A DNA stretch of 64,000 nucleotides from positions 37,154-101,153 of IMG/VR virus record IMGVR_UViG_3300049005_000030. One strand, written 5' to 3'. The DNA is from a virus. Position numbers and translations under genes: made by a program. This document shows positions 48,014 to 48,970 of the stretch, piece by piece (the first letter of the stretch is position 1; the number at the start of each line of letters is the position of its first letter). A model generated the notes under the pieces. The model did not search any database and was not told where the DNA came from. It saw only the letters and a program-made list of their open reading frames with translations.

Positions 48014-48016
48014 CGT
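47988..48016 (+). promoter_or_regulatory. Promoter for the tRNA-like region
   Basis: TTGACA (47988-47993), 17 bp spacer GCCGCCGGGAGACCGGC, TAGCGT (48011-48016). It overlaps the end of the YczE-like gene. The expected start is 48023, the first base of the stem of the RNA at 48023-48099. Confidence 0.72.
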
Positions 48017-48022
48017 ACCTCT

Positions 48023-48099
48023 TGTGCGGTTGGCGAGGACACAGCACGAACGTCTGTAGGACGCCCGCCCGGGAACACAGGCCAGGCCCGGACCGCACA
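48023..48099 (+). ncRNA. Structured RNA, tRNA-like (77 nt)
   Basis: TGTGCGGT (48023-48030) pairs perfectly with ACCGCACA (48092-48099), closing a 77-nt unit the size of a tRNA, and the unit starts at the predicted transcription start. Inside, CGT-CTGTAGG-ACG (51-63) looks like a three-pair anticodon arm with GUA in the anticodon place. The T-arm position has a 5-bp stem, CCGGG/CCCGG, but a 13-nt loop. It is therefore tRNA-like rather than a normal tRNA. Confidence 0.45.
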
Positions 48100-48102
48100 C
48101 CT

Positions 48103-48133
48103 CCGCCGCCCAGTCGACCATCCTGGGCGGCGG
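48103..48133 (+). repeat. Perfect 11-bp hairpin in the tRNA-like region
   Basis: CCGCCGCCCAG (48103-48113) pairs with CTGGGCGGCGG (48123-48133) around a 9-nt loop, directly after the RNA at 48023. It may terminate or separate that RNA. Between here and 48390 there is no protein gene. Further stems occur at CCCAC/GTGGG (about 48160-48178) and GACCGGCGG/CCGCCGGTC (48309-48338), and a T-arm-like CTG-TTCAAGT-CAG lies near 48200-48213. Confidence 0.5.
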
Positions 48134-48389
48134 GGACCACCGCTCGGCAAGCCGCGCGTCCCACACCGCAAGGGTGGGCTCAGCCGGCAGGCCGACAGAT
48201 CTGTTCAAGTCAGGCCGGTGGACGAGGGGACGCAGTGGGTTCGCACTGACGTGGGCAACCCGGCCAGAAGGTCGGGCCGGTCCACCGACGCGGACAACAC
48301 GGCCCCAAGACCGGCGGTGGGTCACGCTGCCGCCGGTCGCGACGCAGGGGTTCAGTTGGACCCGGTCGGCCCTGACCGCCTAGACCGGG

Positions 48390-48484
48390 GGTGCTGTAGC
48401 TCAGATGGGTCAGAGCACGGACGATGCCCGGAGCAACGGAGCGGGCGGGATCCGAGGTCGCCGGTTCGAATCCGGCCAGCACCA
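48390..48484 (+). tRNA. tRNA-like gene with enlarged anticodon arm (about 95 nt)
   Basis: A 7-bp acceptor stem (GGTGCTG 48390-48396 with CAGCACC 48477-48483), T8-A9, a standard D arm (GCTC-AGATGGGTCA-GAGC), a GAGGTC variable region, and a perfect T arm (GCCGG-TTCGAAT-CCGGC) are all present. The anticodon arm is abnormal: CGGA pairs with TCCG, but about 29 nt lie between, containing a GCCCG/CGGGC stem. That leaves no clear 7-nt loop, so the amino acid cannot be given. CCA is not encoded. It could be a decayed tRNA, or one with an insertion. Confidence 0.55.
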
Positions 48485-48594
48485 CGGCAACCGACGTCCA
48501 GACCGTGACGCTTCACGGAGCTGGGGAGCGATCGGATGCAAGCCGCAGGGAAGCCAGTCAGGCAGGGCGTTGCCACTGGCCGAACGAGCGGCAC

Positions 48595-48664
48595 GGCTTG
48601 AAGGTGGGATGGGGCCACCGTCCCCTTAACCGGGGAAGACGTCGGTTCGAATCCGGCCAAGCCA
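48595..48664 (+). tRNA. tRNA-like gene with 6-nt anticodon loop
   Basis: GGCTTG (48595-48600) pairs with CAAGCC (48658-48663); D arm GGTG/CACC; anticodon stem TCCCC/GGGGA with the 6-nt loop TTAACC; variable AGAC; T arm GTCGG-TTCGAAT-CCGGC. If the first loop T is position 33, the anticodon would read UAA (Leu, UUA codon). The short loop, the 6-bp acceptor and the C that would occupy position 37 are unusual. CCA is not encoded. A second hairpin (CCAGT...ACTGG, 48554-48579) lies just upstream. Confidence 0.5.
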
Positions 48665-48790
48665 CTGGACCACGACGGCGCCGCACGGGTTGACGACCCA
48701 GTGGCGTATACGTTCCAAGGTTCGGCGTCCGTCGTCGCCGAGCAAGTGCTTAAGCCGGCCCGTATCCCAGGCGGTCGGTGGACGCGCGAG

Positions 48791-48858
48791 GCGTCTGGCT
48801 GAGCAGTCCCCCCACCTGGGACGGGGGGCAGACTCTGCGGTCGAACCGGGCCAGGCGC
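48791..48858 (+). ncRNA. Third tRNA-like fold with long central hairpin
   Basis: GCGTCTG (48791-48797) pairs with CAGGCGC (48852-48858) over seven positions including one G-U. Inside are a CCCCCC/GGGGGG hairpin and, near the 3' side, CGG-TCGAA-CCG, a shortened T-arm-like element. D and T arms are not canonical, so this is only tRNA-like. Confidence 0.35.
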
Positions 48859-48970
48859 ACGACGCCGCTGGACTCGACCCCGAGCACCACAGGGCGAGAG
48901 AGGCTGTCACCGGCACGGGCAAAGGTCCAGCTGCCCCCGCGCCACCACCGACCTGGGAGGAACACTCGAC

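Follow-up and report, generated by a model that had tools for sequence, protein, structure and literature searches.

A non-coding phage array of tRNA-like units with abnormal anticodon arms suggests RNAs that imitate tRNAs without decoding

A stretch of about 950 bp in a phage genome, lying directly behind a promoter-like sequence, is non-coding and holds two units with tRNA-like anatomy, neither of which has a canonical anticodon loop. Judged from its sequence, this array suggests RNAs that imitate tRNAs without decoding. The window, by which we mean the whole 64,000-nucleotide stretch of DNA analyzed, runs from base 37154 to base 101153 of a virus record of 101,153 bases, and we refer to its phage as G000. 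Read along the locus, a regulator gene is followed by TGCTAG repeats, two ORFs, the promoter, a leader hairpin and the tRNA-like array (Table 1). Our best reading, which we put forward tentatively, is that the array encodes tRNA mimics that do not decode and that probably serve as decoys for host factors recognizing the tRNA body.

Table 1. Coordinates of the features of the locus (window positions) and of the KVP40-type RNAs compared with it
Feature	Position	Strand	Basis
Regulator-like gene, 236 aa, bordering the locus	45396-46106	-	Weak AbiEi_4 match, below cut-off; homologues at the same place in G001 and G321
Operator-like TGCTAG repeat cluster, between regulator and array	46100-47108	.	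13/16 of window sites
Promoter-like TTGACA-N17-TAGCGT	47988-48016	+	Sequence; like sequences directly before the G001 and G005 arrays
Leader stem TGTGCGGT/ACCGCACA	48023-48099	+	Begins at predicted transcript start; not recognized as tRNA
Leader hairpin, 13 bp	48101-48135	+	MFE
Tentative tRNA-like unit	48136-48222	+	Acceptor 6/7; T arm 4/5 with GTTCAAGTC; fold z -2.3
Hairpin, 12 bp	48309-48338	+	Fold z -3.2
tRNA-like unit B	48390-48484	+	Rfam 53.6 bits; arm pairing; centroid fold; splice-out test negative
tRNA-like unit C	48594-48665	+	ARAGORN; Rfam 30.3 bits; 6-nt anticodon loop; perfect T arm; acceptor 6/7
Doubtful unit D	48791-48858	+	8-bp acceptor-like stem; 6-bp hairpin; damaged T arm; fold z -1.27
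Possible ORF of 32 aa with GGGAGGA ahead of it; final element of the unit	48972-49070	+	Sequence; no PHROG match
Possible terminator hairpin AAGGCCGGC/GCCGGCCTT, without clear T run	49081-49112	+	Sequence
Five KVP40-type long tRNA-like RNAs	L198:189-308, 576-698, 817-929, 940-1060, 2622-2734		

Unit B, which is 95 nt long, matches the Rfam tRNA model with an E value of 1e-8, and its body pairs completely, with 7/7 pairs in the acceptor (GGTGCTG/CAGCACC), 4/4 in the D stem (GCTC/GAGC) and 5/5 in the T stem (GCCGG/CCGGC), that is 16/16, all of them Watson-Crick. The acceptor, D and T arms are thus flawless and the abnormality is confined to the anticodon arm, where 29 nt stand in the loop region in place of the expected 7. 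In the centroid fold, a cloverleaf, the anticodon arm is lengthened to CGGA-[CGA]-TGCCCG-11-nt loop-CGGGCG-[GGA]-TCCG, and this extended hairpin does not present a U33 loop. No single contiguous excision within the unit restores an anticodon arm with U33 and a purine at position 37. Unit C is called by ARAGORN as 'tRNA-???', and its Rfam score lies just above the cut-off of 29 bits; it is without U8, and its MFE structure differs from the cloverleaf. Taking the two together, the features of the tRNA body (acceptor, D and T arms and the conserved T-loop residues) are complete in unit B and near-complete in unit C, and the canonical 7-nt anticodon loop with U33 is absent from both. An earlier note on this DNA had placed tRNA-like units with irregular anticodon arms at these two positions (the second as 48595-48664), and both are borne out. 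The relaxed tRNA search that it named as a check, run with Rfam at E ≤ 10 over the whole 101,153-base record, returned units B and C and no other match.

The remaining elements of the array are less tRNA-like. Two further stretches had been described as units of the same kind, at 48023-48099 and 48791-48858 (unit D). Each does have an 8-bp acceptor-like stem, but neither gives an Rfam tRNA match at E ≤ 10 or folds clearly better than shuffles (z -0.27 for the former), and the T arm of unit D is short of one T (GGTCGAACC). The fold z-scores of units B to D relative to shuffles are modest throughout (-1.3 to -1.9). The T-arm-like motif that had been noticed near 48200 was recovered as a third T arm at 48199-48215 with a 4/5 stem, which together with an acceptor strand (6/7 pairs) defines the tentative unit around it. 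The two perfect T arms likewise hold up, as full-stem (5/5) T arms occur twice within 958 bases, where Markov shuffles have a mean of 0.003 and none of 2000 contained two. In the whole record a strict scan (stem at least 4/5) found five T arms, three of them inside the array. Only this strict scan is informative; when a loose T loop was allowed, genome-wide matches were about as numerous as in block shuffles. The hairpin at the far end of the array was not called by a terminator scan, whose loop limit is 8.

The absence of a protein gene from the array, as the note had claimed, is supported by two observations: position-specific GC is flat across the stretch, compared with a GC3 of 0.87-0.95 in the adjoining genes, and none of the ORFs inside it matches PHROG at E ≤ 0.01. 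A promoter-like sequence in front of the array, also named in the note, was confirmed. TTGACA-17-TAGCGT is the sole exact match in the record, and the leader stem begins ∼7 nt downstream of it; however, 0.77 matches per window are expected by chance when up to one mismatch is allowed, and a generic sigma-70 scan did not call it. Taken alone, the promoter-like sequence is weak evidence, and its value comes from its recurrence in relatives. The regulator-like protein is 40% identical to its homologue in one relative, G001, and has a 32% tblastn match in another, G321. TGCTAG hexamers cluster in the ∼1 kb beside the regulator gene, which holds the same 13 sites whether counted against the 16 of the window or the 17 of the whole record; a like arrangement with other motifs is seen beside the regulator in G001 and G321. 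Between these repeats and the promoter lie two rightward ORFs, one of which (47375-48013) encodes a membrane protein with 61-65% identity to proteins of Kutzneria. This gene is the only hint of a host, and on its basis the phage probably infects a Pseudonocardiaceae-like (soil-type) actinobacterium. No RNA ligase or tRNA-repair gene was detected among the 30 phage proteins scanned with Pfam.

Relatives were found through terminase, endolysin, portal and helicase searches. The 107-kb phage G001 has dozens of proteins in common with G000 (32-67% identity) and at the equivalent place carries a regulator, operator-like repeats, a promoter, a leader and a tRNA-like array, with different units. Beside its regulator homologue lie 10 of 13 TTAGCA/TAGCAT-type motifs. 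The promoter that comes next, TTGACT-18-TAGTGT, is unique in the G001 record and leads into a leader stem, after which several T arms with 5/5 stems lie on that strand. One member of the G001 array looks like an ordinary tRNA(CAU). Another, 66 nt long, has a small cloverleaf as its MFE structure, with 10 nt in the anticodon loop. A third, of 123 nt, has D and T arms and closes a loop of ∼60 nt with an ACGGC/GCCGT anticodon stem; its MFE structure loses the D arm. The 56-kb phage G005, which has mainly the endolysin in common with G000, carries two abnormal units ∼200 bases apart and a promoter of the TTGACA-N17-TAGCGT type, a type that recurs in that phage in six copies. In the helicase relative G321 (128 kb) a regulator, GGTACC repeats and non-coding DNA occupy the equivalent place, with no tRNA match, and the array is absent. 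The unit sequences of G000, G001 and G005 are not alignable with one another, and the searches turned up no close relative whose units could be aligned with those of the window. At the DNA level nothing in the phage collection matched the array or the right-hand part of the window, the portal relatives were fragments without tRNA matches, the neighboring regulator used as a query against viral contigs found only G001, and a helicase scan of genome contigs gave no relative.

Expanded tRNA-like units also occur in other phages. A pattern of canonical D and T arms 50-80 bases apart gave at least 120 stretches in IMG/VR, and among the first 80 listed, ∼47 have a 7/7 acceptor and a full T stem; with a GC-rich version of the pattern, 21 of 25 stretches pair in both acceptor (≥6/7) and T stem (≥4/5). 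Such genes are absent from the sampled genomes of the probable host family. A slightly looser form of the GC-rich pattern (TAGCTCA..AGAGC-N36-66-GGTTCGAATCC) matched nothing except one N-run artifact in 299 genomes of the family to which Kutzneria, and probably the host, belongs, and the normally spaced D/T pattern gave 22 matches in six genomes of that family, at 3-4 per genome. We also removed single segments from 97 expanded phage units and scored those left with a 5-bp stem, a 7-nt loop, U33 and a purine at 37. One excision restores such a perfect anticodon arm in 32 of them (0.8 would be expected), a sign of introns or inserts within decoding tRNAs; in the remaining 65, including the tested units of the G000 group, no excision does so. 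Because the sets of expanded units mix types, the G000 array is not to be equated with all expanded phage tRNAs. BLAST of other phages' expanded units against isolates returned ordinary tRNA parts only, or no match.

Some of these expanded units have features of their own. In L063, L073, L095, L096, L103, L106, L120, L164, L166 and L168 an insert of 41-52 nt interrupts the anticodon stem on its 5' strand, directly behind 'CG', and its excision leaves perfect arms for Pro(UGG), Asn(GUU), Lys(UUU) and others. These inserts have in common a hairpin followed by C[AT]GCAA and may form a new class of small introns or inserts in phage tRNAs; RNAalifold on the aligned intron-like inserts gave no consensus structure. 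Another expanded family (L109, L113, L075, L102 and L110) contains a second T-arm-like hairpin (CAACGGTTCGAGTCCGTTC) within the insert, and an unannotated 116-nt tRNA-like unit with an Rfam score of 44 bits lies between tRNA-Ser and tRNA-Asn in Aeromonas phage avDM6 (67820-67935; L190:821-936).

In KVP40-type Vibrio phages the five tRNA-like RNAs listed in Table 1 are 113-123 nt long, and their annotations disagree (pseudo-, other or various tRNAs). Two of them are 98-100% identical among these phages and three mostly 90-96%, one of the three falling to 82% in two phages; the overall region of the more distant phages is 76-87% identical to KVP40. Paired, compensatory changes are seen, for example in the X1 T stem and the X2 acceptor, and a few changes break pairs; in P4 broken pairs (4) outnumber compensated ones under the RNAalifold structure used. 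The KVP40-type RNAs are under purifying selection, which argues against decay there, and not directly for the G000 array.

The earlier note had left three explanations side by side, namely decayed tRNAs, mimics acting as decoys, and a new class of small RNA. With two of its four named units unsupported as tRNA-like, the evidence nevertheless favors non-decoding tRNA-like RNAs over simple decay, because the change in unit B is limited to the anticodon arm of an otherwise intact body, because G001 keeps the locus layout with abnormal units of its own, and because the comparable KVP40-type RNAs are conserved. A decaying cluster, in which former decoding tRNAs have been damaged by insertions and deletions and have no present function, is rather doubtful on these grounds. 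It stays a serious rival, as no alignable close relative was found and one relative is without recognizable units at the equivalent place, and it would fit the gradation from intact (unit B) through marginal (unit C) to barely recognizable (unit D and the leader), as well as the ordinary tRNA retained next to the abnormal units of G001. The phi-pp2 paper takes the low-scoring genes in its own tRNA cluster as pseudo-forms (PMC3468402). Against the reading as mimics stand also the 6/7 acceptor and missing U8 of unit C, the failure of unit D and the leader to be recognizable as tRNAs, the modest z-scores of units B to D, the lack of any tRNA match in G321 and the ordinary tRNA(CAU) of G001.

Three further explanations were considered. 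The body may serve processing and stability as the scaffold of a small RNA whose rebuilt anticodon arm or loop pairs with mRNA or binds a protein; the constancy of the body with inserts that vary between phages and the free loop on the extended hairpin of unit B would suit this, but the inserts of G000, G001 and G005 have no evident sequence in common, and we consider it unlikely. That the units are Y RNA-like mimics docking on a Ro/Rsr protein or a host ribonuclease is more improbable still. About 2 kb from its array (63912-63982, minus strand; L050:3912-3982), G001 does carry a module with permuted T-arm/hairpin/D-arm order, which scores 32.4 bits against the Rfam YrlA model, below the gathering score of 69, and bacterial Y RNAs, including those of mycobacteriophages, are described as tRNA mimics in a passage of PMC12282133 that cites Chen 2014. 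However, YrlA (RF02553) has no match at E ≤ 10 in window positions 47000-50000, no TROVE domain (PF05731) was found in G000, G001, G005 or G321, and the arms of the window units stand in standard order; YrlA or Y RNA identity was rejected on the first two of these results. We give least credence of all to the idea that the units do decode, their insert being either spliced out as an intron or tolerated. The excisable third of the expanded phage units shows that such an arrangement can be found, but no excision yields an arm with U33 and purine 37 in unit B or in the tested G001 and G005 units, for which intron-containing tRNA identity was rejected, and the loop of unit C is too short at 6 nt.

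If the units are instead non-decoding mimics, the array would be one non-coding transcription unit giving a precursor RNA that is likely cut into tRNA-bodied RNAs. The acceptor, D and T arms that are kept are the features recognized by RNase P, by 3' processing enzymes and in CCA addition, whereas the rebuilt anticodon arm would preclude decoding. Such RNAs could then tie up host factors with affinity for the tRNA body, among which defense or toxin enzymes that target tRNAs are the most plausible. We infer the transcription, processing, stability and in vivo non-decoding of the array RNAs, and we infer their role as decoys from the production of T4 RNA C during infection together with the documented anti-defense tRNAs of phages. 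Should this be correct, non-decoding mimics would be a form of phage interference with host tRNA biology that goes beyond replacement tRNAs. It is conceivable, if somewhat doubtful, that large phages widely encode non-decoding tRNA-bodied RNAs from dedicated regulated units, directed against host defenses that recognize tRNAs, and that these have been overlooked as pseudo-tRNAs or missed by pipelines. 'Pseudo-tRNA' labels in phage genomes may conceal selected RNAs. With the conserved RNAs of KVP40-type phages, the question can be put to the test in phages that are already cultivable.

Four known systems come closest to the array. The KVP40 'tRNA-Pseudo' and tRNA-OTHER genes (Rfam tRNA scores of 50-56 bits) resemble the window units in that acceptor, D and T arms accompany an enlarged anticodon region. 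They belong, however, to lower-GC Vibrio phages and are unrelated to the window in sequence, and, unlike unit B, some of their inserts can be excised to give a decoding loop and carry a hairpin with a CAGCAA-like motif, so that the KVP40 RNAs are partly of another, intron-like type. Phage tRNAs are known to counter tRNA-cleaving defenses, as with mycobacteriophage tRNAs against VapC, which carry anticodon-loop changes (PMC10264068), and tRNA-Tyr against retron-Eco7 (PMC11555353). Such anti-defense tRNAs decode and replace the cleaved ones, whereas the window units are without a usable anticodon loop. The YrlA Y RNAs differ in having a permuted arm order and a Ro/Rsr partner. That phage tRNA clusters also include RNAs of unassigned role has been clear ever since T4 RNA C (species 1 RNA) and RNA D, small RNAs beside the tRNA cluster of that phage, which are transcribed late, validated by Northern blot and without known role (PMC9697503; PMC3014915). 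T4 RNA C has no Rfam tRNA match (only tRNA-Sec at 17.5 bits, below cut-off) and no clear D arm or acceptor, whereas the acceptor, D and T arms of unit B are complete. At 139 nt it is longer than a tRNA and ends in a perfect 3' T arm (CCGGG-TTCGAAT-CCCGG), and unit B, itself known from sequence alone, shares both of these properties, making T4 RNA C a possible precedent for the array.
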